The notes beneath the pieces are model-generated. The model saw only the letters and a program-made list of their open reading frames with translations, was not told the DNA's origin and searched no databases. The position numbers and the translations under genes were made by a program. Positions 24,861-32,938 of a DNA stretch of 32,938 nt are shown piece by piece. Position 1 is the stretch's first letter. The number at the start of each line of letters is the position of its first letter. This stretch comes from Pirellulales bacterium (lineage in GTDB: Bacteria > Planctomycetota > Planctomycetia > Pirellulales > JADZDJ01), in contig DASRSD010000121.1 of the NCBI GenBank assembly GCA_035656635.1, positions 1 to 32,938 on the forward strand. The letters are read 5' to 3'.

Positions 24861-25532
24861 CGGGGGACGGGATCTTCGATCGTGTGCACGGGAGTTGTGT
24901 GCATCGCTGCGCGTCTTGAATTTCTTTCCGAAAATTGGGCCACTCGTTTGGTATACTGCTGTCGCTGCGTGCCGCGTACATAATCCGACGGTGTCAGTCG
25001 GGTCATTGCGCTACGTAAGACTCATATGTTCACGACCAAATTCTTTCATAATTCCAAGCCCGTTATGCCGCCAGCCACTGCTTCATTGCCCGCATCTGTG
25101 CTGCACCCCTCGTCGGCCGCCACGGCCTACTCGGCATCGCCAGGAAATGGGCCTGCGCATTCCTTGCGTCTGGGCGGCACAGTTCGGCGGACAGTGTGCG
25201 GCCGCCCGCGATTCTGGCAAGCAATTCGCCGCCCGTGGGTTAAGAATATCGCTTTCCAATTCTTCTTTAGGGACGTAAACTCGACGAGTTTTGTTCGGCC
25301 TGCGGATTGTTTGAGCCGCTATTTGCCGCAGCATCCGGCCCCATACCATGACAAAACGCGCGAGTTTTGGCCGGAGATTTTTTTCCCGCGACAAAACGAC
25401 AATCGTGCTGCTCAGATGTGTTTGGCGGCCAGCGATAATCGCCGCCAATCAGGCGACGCCGAGAACAGGCTTGGAGAGCCAACAGGCAAACTGAATCTGG
25501 CCAATGGCGCGAATTTGCCCGAGAAGTTAAAG
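24861..25532. other. Intergenic region before tRNA-Phe
   Basis: About 670 bases hold no supported gene. Long frames run through in several phases, but their products are rich in Arg, Cys, His and Pro and lack SD-linked starts; one continues antisense through the tRNA. A compact hairpin with nested ggcg/cgcc and gcgat/atcgc arms lies at 25424-25446. I looked for tmRNA, RNase P RNA and SRP RNA signatures and saw none. Confidence 0.4.
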
Positions 25533-25605
<73 letters not shown>

Positions 25606-25841
25606 GGGTGGCCGACGGAAGCGGTCCGCGAAAGGTCCGCGCCGGTAACCCTGACACCGGAGCACGGAAACCTGTTCGCTTGCCTGGCTGGTATACCGTC
25701 GGCAATAAACAACGGATCGTAAATGCCCACGGCCAGATTGTCAAACCGGGTGGGCGGCATTCATGGCAATCTGCCACACTCCGGCTTACACTAAAGATGA
25801 TCGATTGGGCATTACCTATTGCCGCTCGGAGAAATAGCAGC

Positions 25842-28148
25842 ATGCCGCGTCGCCGAGAACGTTTGCTTTCGCTTTGCTTGATCGTACTGGCATGCGTTTT
25901 GAGCGGACCAGTGCTGCGATCTGCGGCAGAAAAGTTTGCCAGCGCAGCCGATGTGCAGCCGGCGGCAGTTTTTCGTGTGTTGCCCTCCGGGAAACTCCCC
26001 GCCGATAGCCGGCTAAGCCCATTGAAGGACTTGAACGGCTCCTTTCCGTTTACACCGCCGAATACCCGTGACGAATGGAATGATCGCGCGGACGAAGTGC
26101 GCAAGCAAACTCAAGTCGCCGCCGGCTTGTGGCCCCTGCCCGAAAAAACCCCGCTGAACGCTGTGATTTACGGGCGAGTGGACCGCGAAAATTACACCGT
26201 GGAAAAAGTTTACTTTGAAAGTTATCCAGGTTTTTTCGTTACCGGCAATTTATACCGACCAAAAGGCCGCGAAGGAAAGTTGCCGGGCGTTCTTTGCCCG
26301 TATGGCCACTTTGCCGACGGGCGCTTCAATGAAGACCCTCTAAAAAAAGTGCGGGACGAGATTTCTGAAGGCGCCGAGCGATTCGAAGTTGGTGGCCGTC
26401 ATCCGGTACAGGCCTATCCCACGCAATTGGCCCGCATGGGCTGCGTGGCGTTCCAATACGACATGGTTGGCTACGACGACAGTGTGCAAATACCGTACGA
26501 AGTCGCCCACGGCAATCACACGCCCCGTCCGCAAATGAATACGCCGCAAAATTGGGGATTTTACAGTCCCCAGGCCGATCTGCATTTGCAGAGCATTTTG
26601 GGCCTGCAAACTTACAACTCAATCCGGGCGCTCGATTTCCTCTGTGAGCTGCCCGATGTCGATCCAGAGCGGCTGGCAGTCACGGGCGCCAGCAGCGGCG
26701 GCACGCAAACGCTCCTGGTGTGTGCGATTGATCCCCGGCCTAGCGTAGCGGTGCCTGCGGTCATGGTTTCAACCGCCATGCAAGGCGGATGCACATGCGA
26801 AAATGCCGACTTGCTCCGAGTGGATACCGGCAATGTCGAAATTGCTGCGCTGTTTTCGCCCAAGCCCTTGTGCGTCATTGCCGACGGCGGCGATTGGACA
26901 AAGGAGCTGGACCAAAAAGGAGGGCCGGAACTCCAGCAACTTTACAAACTGCAAGGCGCAAAAGACAACCTGCAAATCAAATTATTCAAAGACTATGGGC
27001 ACAACTTCAATTACGTTAGCCGCGAGGCAATGTATCAATGGATGAACAAGCAACTGAAATTGGGACTGGAAGAGCCTGTGCTGGAAGCCGATTTCGTGCC
27101 GCTAACTCGCGAAGAAATAACCGTCTGGGACGACAAGCATCCCAAACCCGCCGGCGGCGAAGATTTCGAACGCAGTTTGCTGCGAACCATGACCGATGAC
27201 TCGCAACGACAATTGACCAAACTCATTCCGCATGACGAGAAATCGCTTTCCACGTTCCGCCACGTGGTCGGTGATGCCTGGGACGCGCTCATTGGCCGCA
27301 GCGTATCTAAGCCCTCGGATGTGGAATTTCAACAACAAGGCGAGACCCTTCGCCGCGAAAAGTTTCTGCAGAAAAAAGGCTTCCTGCGCTATAAGCCACA
27401 AAAGGAAGAATTGCCCACGGTGCTGCTGCAACCGCGGGGAGAAACGAATCGCACGGTGATTTGGCTCGATCCGGCTGGCAAAGCTGCATTATTTGCCGCC
27501 GACGGTTCTCCCAAACTGGCTGTTCGAAAGTTGCTCGATAGCGGTGCTCAGGTCGTCGGATTGGATCTGTTATACCAAGGAGAATTTTTAGCCGACGCTA
27601 AGCCGCTGGAGCGTACGCGGCAAGTTGTGATGAAAGATCGCAATTCAGCAGCATACACATTCGGTTATAACCGCGCTCTGTTCGCACAACGGGTTCATGA
27701 TGTGCTGACGGCCATCAGTTATTTTCGCGGCGACGATCAGCCCTGGGGCGCGATCGACGTAGTAGGTTTCAACGGCGCGGGGCACTGGGCCATCGCAGCT
27801 AAGGCGATGGCCGGCAAGGCCGTGGATCGCACGGTTGCCGAAACGGGCGGTTTTCGTTTTGCGAATGTCGCCACGGTCGATAACCCCGATTTTTTGCCCG
27901 GCGCAGCCAAGTATTTCGATTTGCCCGGTTTGCTGGCACTGTGCACATCGCACGAATTATGGTTGCGCGGTGAGACATTCCCCGACCCGGCGGTTGCCGC
28001 GTCTGCATCAACTTCGGCGCCGACCAATGATATGGATGTGGTCGCCGCCGCGTTCAAAGCCGCCGGAGCACAAGATAAAATCACGGTCTATGATGGGCCG
28101 GCTGAAAAGGCGGAAGATGCGGCCATCGAATGGCTGCTACGGAAGTGA
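25842..28148 (+). CDS. Secreted acetyl-esterase-like alpha/beta hydrolase, two-module
   Basis: The 768-residue protein starts at the ATG at 25842 (GGAG SD), with a signal peptide (RERLLSLCLIVLACVLSGPVLRSAAE). The first module resembles acetylxylan-esterase/DUF-type hydrolases: PGFFVTGNLYRPKG, VLCPYGHF, the nucleophile elbow GASSGG (Ser284) and DYGHNF with a likely catalytic His. The second half has a similar fold signature, but its elbow reads GFNGAG, with Asn644 where a nucleophile is expected, so it is probably a degenerate non-catalytic hydrolase module. The frame continues upstream to 25026, but that part overlaps tRNA-Phe antisense and is not protein-like. Planctomycetes carry many such enzymes for polysaccharide use. 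It is convergent with the protease gene at 28159. Confidence 0.8.
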   Translation: MPRRRERLLSLCLIVLACVLSGPVLRSAAEKFASAADVQPAAVFRVLPSGKLPADSRLSPLKDLNGSFPFTPPNTRDEWNDRADEVRKQTQVAAGLWPLPEKTPLNAVIYGRVDRENYTVEKVYFESYPGFFVTGNLYRPKGREGKLPGVLCPYGHFADGRFNEDPLKKVRDEISEGAERFEVGGRHPVQAYPTQLARMGCVAFQYDMVGYDDSVQIPYEVAHGNHTPRPQMNTPQNWGFYSPQADLHLQSILGLQTYNSIRALDFLCELPDVDPERLAVTGASSGGTQTLLVCAIDPRPSVAVPAVMVSTAMQGGCTCENADLLRVDTGNVEIAALFSPKPLCVIADGGDWTKELDQKGGPELQQLYKLQGAKDNLQIKLFKDYGHNFNYVSREAMYQWMNKQLKLGLEEPVLEADFVPLTREEITVWDDKHPKPAGGEDFERSLLRTMTDDSQRQLTKLIPHDEKSLSTFRHVVGDAWDALIGRSVSKPSDVEFQQQGETLRREKFLQKKGFLRYKPQKEELPTVLLQPRGETNRTVIWLDPAGKAALFAADGSPKLAVRKLLDSGAQVVGLDLLYQGEFLADAKPLERTRQVVMKDRNSAAYTFGYNRALFAQRVHDVLTAISYFRGDDQPWGAIDVVGFNGAGHWAIAAKAMAGKAVDRTVAETGGFRFANVATVDNPDFLPGAAKYFDLPGLLALCTSHELWLRGETFPDPAVAASASTSAPTNDMDVVAAAFKAAGAQDKITVYDGPAEKAEDAAIEWLLRK

Positions 28149-30071: not shown

Positions 30072-31088
30072 TTACGCCAGCGTTCGCCCCACGGCGGCCG
30101 CCACCTTGCGACACGAGTCCATCGCCTGGCGGAACTGCTCGGGATTCATCGATTGATTTCCATCCGAAAGCGCGTTCTCAGGATCGGAGTGCACCTCGAC
30201 AATCAGCCCATCGGCGCCCGCCGCCACACTGGCTGCACACATTTGCGGCACCAGCCACGTGTGTCCAGTGCCGTGGCTAGGGTCAACCACCACCGGCAAA
30301 TGCGTTTTGCCATGCAAATAAACCACCGTGGCCAACGGCAAGGTAAATCGGGTGTGAGTTTCGAAGGTACGAATGCCGCGCTCGCACAGCATGATTTGCT
30401 GATTACCGGCATCCAAAATGTACTCAGCCGCCAACAACAGTTCTTCAATTGTGGCGCTAGGGCCGCGCTTCAAAAGCACAGCTCGCCCCGCCTTTCCGAC
30501 AGACTCCAACAACCGATAATTTTGCATGTTGCGCGCGCCAATTTGTAATACATCCGCATATCGTGCAACTAATTCTACGTCCTCGGTCGCCACCACTTCC
30601 GTCACAATGGCCAGACCGGTAGCGTCACGCGCTGCTTGGAGCAACTTTAAACCTTCGTCTTTCAAACCCTGGAAGCTGTAAGGACTGGTGCGCGGCTTGA
30701 ATGCTCCGCCGCGCAGGGCAGTGGCGCCAGCGGCCTTTACGGCCTTGGCCGTGGCGAGAATTTGCCCTTCGCTTTCAACAGAGCAGGGGCCAGCAATTAC
30801 GCCCACCGTGCCGCCGCCAACGGTCAAACTGCCGGCGCGTACCACTGTGGGGTCAGTCCGTACTTCACGGCTAGCTATTTTATAGGGGGCCAAAATTGGC
30901 ACAACTTCGGCTACGCCGGGCCCGCTTTCCAGCGAATCTTTGTAGGTTTTGCGGTCATCGCCGACTACGGCAATTACCGTGCGCTCGGTCCCATTGATCA
31001 CATGCGGCCGTAAGCCCAACTTGTGCACGCGTTGGACCATACGCTCAATATCTTCTGCCGAAGCATCTTTTTTCATGACGACTATCAC
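30072..31088 (-). CDS. aroF: DAHP synthase (3-deoxy-7-phosphoheptulonate synthase), type I-beta with ACT-like N-terminal domain
   Basis: The 338-residue enzyme joins phosphoenolpyruvate and erythrose 4-phosphate, the first committed step of the shikimate pathway to Phe, Tyr and Trp. The N-terminal ferredoxin-like regulatory domain (MIVVMKKDASAEDIERMV...) matches the T. maritima-type enzyme. The barrel carries GPCSVESEGQ, RGGAFKPRTSPYSFQG, LLKRGPSAT, CERGIRTFE and DPSHGTGH, which supply the metal and substrate ligands. The start is GTG (31088) with an AGGAAG SD, and family alignment supports it. Upstream lies an aromatic leader peptide and an intrinsic terminator (31124-31279), so transcription attenuation is likely. 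Feedback through the N-terminal domain would add a second level of control. Confidence 0.96.
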   Translation of the reverse strand: MIVVMKKDASAEDIERMVQRVHKLGLRPHVINGTERTVIAVVGDDRKTYKDSLESGPGVAEVVPILAPYKIASREVRTDPTVVRAGSLTVGGGTVGVIAGPCSVESEGQILATAKAVKAAGATALRGGAFKPRTSPYSFQGLKDEGLKLLQAARDATGLAIVTEVVATEDVELVARYADVLQIGARNMQNYRLLESVGKAGRAVLLKRGPSATIEELLLAAEYILDAGNQQIMLCERGIRTFETHTRFTLPLATVVYLHGKTHLPVVVDPSHGTGHTWLVPQMCAASVAAGADGLIVEVHSDPENALSDGNQSMNPEQFRQAMDSCRKVAAAVGRTLA

Positions 31089-31123: not shown

Positions 31124-31164
31124 AAAAAAAAGCCCCGATCTCCGGCTTTCCGGGTCTCGGGGCT
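31124..31164 (-). terminator. Intrinsic terminator hairpin in the aroF leader (arms 3:4)
   Basis: On the minus strand AGCCCCGA (31164-31157) pairs with TCGGGGCT (31138-31131) around an inner CCGG-aaag-CCGG stem, followed by seven T (31130-31124). It ends about 35 nt before the aroF start codon, too close for a separate promoter downstream, so it must act conditionally if aroF is expressed from upstream. Confidence 0.85.
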
Positions 31165-31198
31165 GTTTCCACTTTGCTTTGTGGCTTGGTGAGAGCGG

Positions 31199-31279
31199 TT
31201 AACAACCTCCCTCGGCCCCGCAAGCGAGCGGGCTAAAGTAAAACCAAAACGCAAAAAAGCTGTTAACTGTGCAGCTCAT
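31199..31279 (-). CDS. Aromatic amino-acid leader peptide (26 aa)
   Basis: A 26-codon frame (ATG 31279, TAA 31201-31199) contains eight consecutive codons reading FFAFWFYF (31258-31235): five Phe, one Trp and one Tyr. Such runs are the mark of leader peptides whose ribosome stalls when the charged tRNA is scarce. The next gene, aroF, makes the precursor of exactly these three amino acids. No clear SD is seen, so translation may be leaderless or weak. The Phe/Trp/Tyr run lies directly before hairpin arm 1. Confidence 0.8.
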   Translation of the reverse strand: MSCTVNSFFAFWFYFSPLACGAEGGC

Positions 31280-31400
31280 ATCCACATTGTGTCATGCGAT
31301 GCCCTGGAACGCAAGCGCGAAATGAAAGTGGCAAAAATCATGGGGATGTGCAGAAAATTGAGAGAAAATCCGTGACTCACGCTTCATCGTAGCCACCGCG

Positions 31401-32938
31401 CTACTTGTTCTGGCGTGCGCTGGCTAAGGCCGCTTCCACCTGCGATTGGACGCGCTGCGGCGCTCGGACAATCAGCGCACCGCTGGGAATATCGAAGTGA
31501 AGCACTCCTCTACTGACCGCATCGTTCGCGCTGACAGCATTTGAATCGGCGTTCCAAAGTTGTGGTTCAATTTTCGCCATGATCTGTTTGATCAGCTTTT
31601 TACTGGTCGCAGTATCTGGTGCTAAATCGCGGGCCGCATAAAACTCGGTATCCATTTGCTCCCGCGCCGCCGGATGGCTTGTAATTTCAATCGTGCGGCG
31701 ATCAATTGCGCGCCATGTAAGATCAGCCGACGCTGTCAAATTGTCCAGTAACTTCTCCAGCGGTGTGTTTACAGCGACCGCCGCACATTCGCTATCCGCC
31801 GATGTTCCTTCCTGCGCGAGCGCCGCGTGATTAATCACAATCGTTGCGCCGGTTGTCCGGCTCAACCACTCCATCACTTGTGCTAGTGGCTGAGGAGTTG
31901 AAAAATTCGCGTTGACGGGCTTTTGCAGCAATTCCCGGGCTTGGGTTTCCCGTGAGGTAAGCACAAATCGCGCTGGATCGTAGTGGCTTTTAAGCGGTAG
32001 ACCGCGCGCCACCCTTAAACGTTCGCACAAATCAAGAATTTGCGCATGTGCCGGCTCGGTTTGCTCAATCAGCAATGCACCATTGCTGACAACGAGCGTG
32101 GCCTTTCCGCCGGGGCTTTGCCAAGAGCCAGGCGCTACCATTTGCTTTACCAGCGCCGCCAATTCGCTAAGTGCCTGGGGATCTGTGCCGGCCAAATCGG
32201 GAACCGCATAACGCACTTGCCGCAGTTTCTCTTGCGGCGGATAACCGACGATCAATTGTCCATCGCGAAACTGATAGCCCAACCGCAATGATTCCACAGG
32301 CGATTGCAGCAGTTCCGCCACAGAAGCATCGCTCAAATGCAACTGGACGGGCATGGCTGCTGATTGCCCCATGTCGTGTAGTGCATCCACATCCAGCGTG
32401 ATGGGAATTGTGCTCATTGCGGAAACCAGTGACAGAAAATCGGCCAATGATTGCCCCTGAATTTCAATGTCGGCGACGGAATCGGACAGCCGGGCTTTGA
32501 GATTCACGGCTCGCGGCGCGACCCGCTTCAAAGTGCGAATTTCCGGTTGTTGACTAATTGCGGAAGGGGGCGGGGCTGGCGTTTCGGCCATCGGCGCGGT
32601 TGACGAAACCAAAGCACCCGCAGCAGAGCCAACTGAGGGGACTGCCGGAGGCGTGCCCCCTGTATCCGAACCGTTGGATTCCGGTTGACTTGCCGAAGGT
32701 TTTGTTTCGACATTCTCGGCTGCAATTTCCTTTTCGGGTTGAGCGGCGACTGGAGCTGATGTATTCGGTAAGCGTGGCGAATCCGTCCTTGGATCTGTGC
32801 CTGAAGATTCCGTAGTCGCCACGGGAGCAGCAATCGAATTGTTGTTTGGCGCCTCTGACTTCGGCGAGTTTGATACTGTGTTTGCGCTGGATAGAGCGGG
32901 GGATTCTGTGGCGGACGGAGTGGAAGATTGAACTACAG
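31401..32938 (-). CDS. Secretin/STN-like repeat protein, 5' end beyond the window
   Basis: The frame is open to the right edge, so the true start lies outside; the visible part is about 512 residues. It begins with a long Ala/Ser/Pro/Thr-rich low-complexity region (roughly the first 150 visible residues). Repeated short domains follow, such as VADIEIQGQSLADFLSLVSAMSTIPITLDVDAL and PLAQVMEWLSRTTGATIVINHAAL, each followed by LTWRAIDRRTIEIT-like strands. These resemble the STN/secretin N-domain fold. No secretin barrel is visible, and it ends in VQSQVEAALASARQNK. It may be a periplasmic scaffold or adaptor rather than a pore. The stop is TAG (31401-31403), 312 bases upstream of aroF. Confidence 0.6.
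   Translation of the reverse strand, partial: VVQSSTPSATESPALSSANTVSNSPKSEAPNNNSIAAPVATTESSGTDPRTDSPRLPNTSAPVAAQPEKEIAAENVETKPSASQPESNGSDTGGTPPAVPSVGSAAGALVSSTAPMAETPAPPPSAISQQPEIRTLKRVAPRAVNLKARLSDSVADIEIQGQSLADFLSLVSAMSTIPITLDVDALHDMGQSAAMPVQLHLSDASVAELLQSPVESLRLGYQFRDGQLIVGYPPQEKLRQVRYAVPDLAGTDPQALSELAALVKQMVAPGSWQSPGGKATLVVSNGALLIEQTEPAHAQILDLCERLRVARGLPLKSHYDPARFVLTSRETQARELLQKPVNANFSTPQPLAQVMEWLSRTTGATIVINHAALAQEGTSADSECAAVAVNTPLEKLLDNLTASADLTWRAIDRRTIEITSHPAAREQMDTEFYAARDLAPDTATSKKLIKQIMAKIEPQLWNADSNAVSANDAVSRGVLHFDIPSGALIVRAPQRVQSQVEAALASARQNK

Follow-up and report, generated by a model that had tools for sequence, protein, structure and literature searches.

DAHP synthase catalyses the first step of aromatic amino-acid synthesis and is common to Phe, Trp and Tyr. 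In E. coli, the ilv and thr leaders each read several amino acids, and therefore a leader reading several amino acids is not new as such. The earlier note on this DNA, which described attenuation as usually serving one amino acid, has to be qualified in this respect. The E. coli trp, ilv and thr leaders use the same mechanism as the one proposed below, whereas their amino acids and genes differ and Shine-Dalgarno sites are used there. Similarly, Phe_leader (pheL-pheA, Gammaproteobacteria) has a Phe-rich leader, competing arms and an intrinsic terminator, but its gene is pheA instead of a DAHP synthase gene and mainly one amino acid is read. The nearest known system is aroR-aroF of C. glutamicum, an attenuated DAHP synthase with a short Phe-Tyr-Phe leader, in which Phe limitation acts while Tyr has no effect (PMC4046766, PMC11802643). 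Leader-peptide attenuation is known from Proteobacteria and Actinobacteria and, through a His leader, from Firmicutes (PMC2965389). The survey of Actinobacteria reported classical leader-peptide attenuators at trp, ilv, leuA and leuS; in contrast to what is described here, it detected no conserved RNA structures ahead of Phe or Tyr operons (PMC1262725). Where Korolev 2016 mentions planctomycete leader genes, it deals solely with translation reinitiation and with leader-gene distances of about 10 bp. Our literature search for ribosome-mediated attenuation in planctomycetes, with subscription journals mostly outside its reach, retrieved no papers, in agreement with the earlier note, which knew of no such description; an attenuated DAHP synthase itself is nevertheless known, from C. 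glutamicum. What is new in the candidate described here is the phylum and the three-amino-acid design, while the kind of attenuation itself is known.

The window, that is, the whole stretch of 32,938 nucleotides analysed here, contains upstream of aroF a short leader ORF that we interpret, with a probability of about 0.9, as part of a ribosome-mediated transcription attenuator. That all three amino acids, Phe, Trp and Tyr, are sensed by this leader also appears likely from its codons. The features of the locus, derived from the sequence, are the following:

31401-32936, minus strand: upstream gene of 511 codons, open at the window edge, on the same strand as aroF
31309..31314, minus strand: predicted -35 element TTGCGT, 17 nt from the -10 element
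31286..31291, minus strand: predicted -10 element CACAAT, 6 nt ahead of the leader ATG
31199..31279, minus strand: leader ORF, 26 codons and TAA, translated as MSCTVNSFFAFWFYFSPLACGAEGGC*
31235..31258, minus strand: putative regulatory codon run FFAFWFYF (TTT TTT GCG TTT TGG TTT TAC TTT)
31228..31232, minus strand: arm 1, CCCGC, pairing with GCGGG at 31221-31217 (local fold, -10.5 kcal/mol)
31215..31221, minus strand: arm 2, GCGGGGC, within the leader coding sequence, pairing with arm 3 and covarying in relatives
31157..31164, minus strand: arm 3, AGCCCCGA, 5' arm of the terminator, from folding
31131..31138, minus strand: arm 4, TCGGGGCT, 3' arm of the terminator (3:4 hairpin, -22.7 kcal/mol), covarying in relatives
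31124..31131, minus strand: T-tract of the intrinsic terminator, 8 T
30072..31088, minus strand: aroF, GTG start at 31088, DAHP synthase of the NCBIfam PRK08673/TIGR01361 type

The order on the minus strand is thus upstream gene, -35, -10, leader ORF, terminator and aroF. The assignment of the aroF product as DAHP synthase is based on NCBIfam profiles (486 bits for PRK08673 and 380 bits for TIGR01361), and the genome search found aroF to be the single DAHP synthase of this type in the source genome. A second match there covers 238 aa at 31% identity; it is probably a KDO8P synthase and was not counted. The NCBIfam search with the upstream gene (31401-32936) gave no matches; transcripts reading through from this gene would cross the attenuator too.

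These positions agree with those of the earlier note, the T count being the sole discrepancy. The run FFAFWFYF does lie within a 26-codon leader (31258-31235 of the ORF 31279-31199), and Phe, Trp and Tyr codons do stand together in one leader before the enzyme that the three pathways share. Arm 1 starts directly after the run, 2 bases past the last Phe codon (31237-31235). The strong 3:4 terminator (31164-31124) ends exactly 35 nt from the aroF GTG, as proposed, with a T-tract of 8 T instead of seven. Compared with C. glutamicum aroR, where Phe-Tyr-Phe is described without Trp, this leader, from another phylum, likewise places Phe and Tyr codons before a DAHP synthase gene and adds Trp; the likeness is one of description.

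The mechanism that we infer for this locus comprises leader translation, ribosome stalling, readthrough, a response to each amino acid and ribosome-polymerase coupling. Transcription would begin at the leader ATG or no more than a few bases from it, and the ribosome would load on a nearly leaderless RNA. With charged aromatic tRNAs, it would reach the TAA and cover arm 2, upon which arms 3:4 would pair and RNA polymerase would halt ahead of aroF. With any one of Phe, Trp or Tyr in short supply, the ribosome would wait in the F/W/Y run and cover arm 1, upon which arms 2:3 would pair, the terminator would be blocked and aroF would be transcribed. The switch would be a joint readout of how much charged tRNA-Phe, tRNA-Trp and tRNA-Tyr is available.

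The leader ORF is rich in codons for the end products of the aroF pathway. None of 2000 dinucleotide shuffles of the window's upstream stretch attained its 7 aromatic residues in 10 codons (maximum 6), and the fold energy of the leader region is 3.1 sd below that of shuffles. In a first set of 81 DAHP-synthase upstream regions, the window among them, runs with at least 6 of 10 aromatic residues were present in 51% of the loci, whereas the reverse strand gave 1.2% and shuffled sequences 0.35%; the leader thresholds had been chosen after the window had been seen. Within 1.73 Mb of the source genome (120 contig starts, 35% of the genome, window included), 23 short ORFs had 6 of 10 aromatic residues and three of these were followed by a hairpin and T-tract, the one in the window being the strongest.

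Adding 26 relatives from the order and dropping duplicates gave 105 distinct DAHP-synthase upstream regions of the phylum. Aromatic-rich leaders were found in 65 of them, 60 of which had an intrinsic terminator 8-60 nt past the leader stop (median 29 nt in these 60 loci), whereas a terminator followed only 17 of 235 other short-ORF stops. Therefore, the terminator stands between leader and gene at a constrained distance, as in attenuators. Genomes carrying the element include Planctomycetaceae and members of other classes of the phylum; the leader of a same-genus relative reads MSCPVRNFFDFWYYFSPPGCGAEGGL and that of a same-family relative MSTFANHFGFRFYFSPPGCGAEEGL. The F/W/Y run, whose conservation in relatives the earlier note had set as a test, keeps its codon class in 60 of the 105 loci. 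Phe is present in all 60 leaders, Tyr in 58 and Trp in 52, and 50 of the 60 contain all three.

Such an attenuator could also read in effect one amino acid, Phe, with the Trp and Tyr codons tolerated as harmless. Phe is indeed the commonest residue (247 of the 448 aromatic residues in the leaders), and C. glutamicum aroF answers to Phe and not to Tyr despite its Phe-Tyr-Phe leader. However, the presence of Tyr in 58 of 60 leaders and of the rare one-codon Trp in 52 of 60 speaks against mere tolerance. In addition, the most frequent place of Trp is three codons ahead of the run's end, and a ribosome stalled there should extend to arm 1. Reading of Phe by itself is therefore considered unlikely, and the codon content favours the sensing of all three amino acids.

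The conserved arms support mutually exclusive antiterminator and terminator pairings. The mean 2:3 duplex energy of the loci, each with its own arm 3 (-18.0 kcal/mol), was better than with arm 3 from other loci (-14.0 kcal/mol; permutation p 5e-5) or with shuffled leader tails (-11.6 kcal/mol). In a 45-locus alignment, standard pairs reached 77% at 2:3 and 87% at 3:4, against means of 70% and 75% under whole-arm swaps, and none of 1000 swaps matched the observed pairing at either helix; these swap figures are not exact probabilities, since swapping leaves the kinship between loci in place. Complementarity of the arms in relatives, also named beforehand as a test, is thus borne out by covariation. 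Concerted changes of arms 2, 3 and 4 were observed in L085 (GAGTC:GACTC) and L099 (GGTTC:GAACC), compared with the commoner GGGTC:GACCC. The rank of each locus's arm 3 within the whole set was a weak statistic, because GCCCCG is common to many loci, and was dropped in favour of the swap permutation and the alignment counts.

The antiterminator in the window itself was upheld in part: arms 2:3 covary in relatives, but the window's helix is shorter than in most of them, comprising just the core CGGGGC:GCCCCG, with the adjoining 5 positions, paired in relatives, unpaired here. This shorter helix could indicate that the source species alone carries a decayed, non-functional copy. Nevertheless, ORF, run, strong terminator, promoter and spacing are intact and common to the same-genus leader, which makes decay very improbable.

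Since arm 2 lies inside the coding sequence, the codons after the aromatic run are shaped by RNA pairing. This bears on a further reading, in which the peptide itself acts, as a small membrane protein or through a TnaC-like arrest, with the terminator serving only to stop transcription from upstream. Short aromatic-rich peptides can be membrane-active, and the upstream gene at 31401-32936 is on the same strand. In contrast, the peptide is poorly conserved outside the aromatic residue class and its C-terminal codons track complementarity to arm 3, while for a free aromatic ligand to act on the nascent chain, the peptide would not have to contain all three residues; we give this reading hardly any weight. 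Least probable of all is that the amino acids are sensed by a T-box, a riboswitch or a terminator bound by a protein, the ORF being a bystander. Nothing in favour of this reading came to light; the element is compact with a codon class as its conserved feature, and searches at Rfam gathering scores yielded a distant tRNA alone in the window and one tRNA alone in 13 related loci, with no curated T-box or amino-acid riboswitch covariance model matching the leader. Among the weak matches on the leader strand, Phe_leader (RF01859) came first, spanning the whole model with 19.3 bits, far below its gathering score of 55. The window carries a tRNA gene at 25533-25605 on the minus strand (Rfam, 74.8 bits) inside the opposite-strand ORF 25026-28148; the true start of this gene is probably further downstream than listed.

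For the attenuator, we folded the RNA as far as arm 3 at every ribosome position, with the footprint ending 12 nt past the start of the A-site codon; these are equilibrium and not kinetic foldings. In these foldings, arm 2 is available while the ribosome is in the run and is covered once it has reached the stop codon. In the window, arm 3 had 7.4-11.3 of its bases paired upstream when the A site held an aromatic codon, against 1.0 at the stop. The corresponding pairing in relatives involved about 10-19 bases with an aromatic A-site codon. At the stop codon it fell from about 11-12 to 0.1-1.5 in L003, L083 and L104, arm 3 was nearly free in L031, and it was less fully freed in L005, L084 and L085. 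The switch occurs just past the aromatic run in the relatives, whereas that of the window is less sharp and near the end of the ORF. The 1:2 hairpin is present (-10.5 kcal/mol), but ribosome-free folding does not clearly release arm 3, which still pairs upstream in the window and some relatives; termination without translation is therefore not clearly predicted.

The absence of a clear Shine-Dalgarno site and the weak promoter hexamers had been listed in the earlier note as limits. The hexamers are where they had been placed, with a near-leaderless mRNA as the predicted outcome, but the missing Shine-Dalgarno site and the near-leaderless start can hardly count as weaknesses given their conservation in relatives. 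The motif TTG-N19-22-[CT]A[TCA]A[ACT]T-N4-9-start, with TTG-N16-18-CAtAAT-N6-9-start as its typical promoter-like form, precedes 19 of the 60 leaders but 1 of the 828 remaining start triplets of these regions, and the distance from -10 to start codon is 6-7 nt in nearly all loci listed. Shine-Dalgarno 4-mers precede 6 of 60 leaders but 47 of 60 aroF starts; within the promoter-bearing subset, the counts are 0 of 19 and 14 of 19, respectively. The conserved promoter geometry, together with the rarity of Shine-Dalgarno sites at leaders, suggests a leaderless or nearly leaderless mRNA as the probable template for leader translation, with a predicted transcription start at about 31279, at the leader ATG. 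This likely promoter, conserved upstream of the leader, argues against the refutation named in the earlier note, an aroF start site that follows the terminator. The aroR transcript of C. glutamicum is reported by Neshat et al. 2014 to be leaderless, which would match the planctomycete leader.

Other amino-acid genes of the same genomes provide a comparison. Upstream of leuA, a leucine-rich leader with a terminator was found in 12 of 14 Pirellulales genomes (L183-L196), the leader of the source genome being MRGLGLFLLSELLLTGSRP* (L186:1009-1068, contig C183, G000). Its arms 2:3 are better than swaps (p 0.0017), pointing to a leucine attenuator at leuA as a second planctomycete attenuator. As the amino acid in this leader matches its own pathway, the leuA case supports attenuation as a general mechanism there. 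The upstream regions of trpE, pheA, pheS, hisG and ilvB in the same 14 genomes yielded no convincing leader with a terminator; two weak matches, L139 and L156, lay 595-818 nt away and resembled chance. A second DAHP synthase, about 50% identical, adjoins pheA in several relatives (G005:C19, G008:C1, G012:C18 and others), and the region ahead of that pheA yielded no aromatic leader; the source genome is without this pheA-adjoining paralogue.

Taken together with leuA, the comparisons incline us, with some reserve, to the view that across Planctomycetota one leader on a leaderless mRNA integrates Phe-, Trp- and Tyr-tRNAs, which would mean close coupling of ribosome and polymerase. The phylum-level prediction used in PMC13323073 does not place the PVC group in the list of runaway-transcription phyla, which fits transcription-translation coupling in planctomycetes. 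If true, close coupling would hold despite their unusual cell plan, and a phylum-wide attenuator would allow coupling to be tested directly and quantitatively in cells formerly regarded as compartmentalised. Leaderless leaders would naturally synchronise the first ribosome with the polymerase, and an any-of-three design at the shared first step would answer the control problem of one enzyme with three end products.

The element is absent in 45 of the 105 loci, partly through contig limits, threshold or a different operon context. Mapped on the DAHP-synthase tree (128 rows), its presence requires 25 changes, against 42 when shuffled. Its scattering among deep branches of this tree may point to an old element that was lost several times. 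A DAHP-synthase clade of 13 has no leader (L013, L021, L022, L040, L044, L047, L052, L054, L061, L064, L067, L071 and L100). In at least some of its members (e.g. L022, L054, L064 and L071) an upstream reading frame enters the aroF start, suggesting that operon membership replaced leader control in this clade. In the Phycisphaerales loci L076, L081 and L082, an aromatic-rich leader precedes a small ORF and then aroF, with a terminator scored in L076 only, and these may be two-gene operons under leader control.
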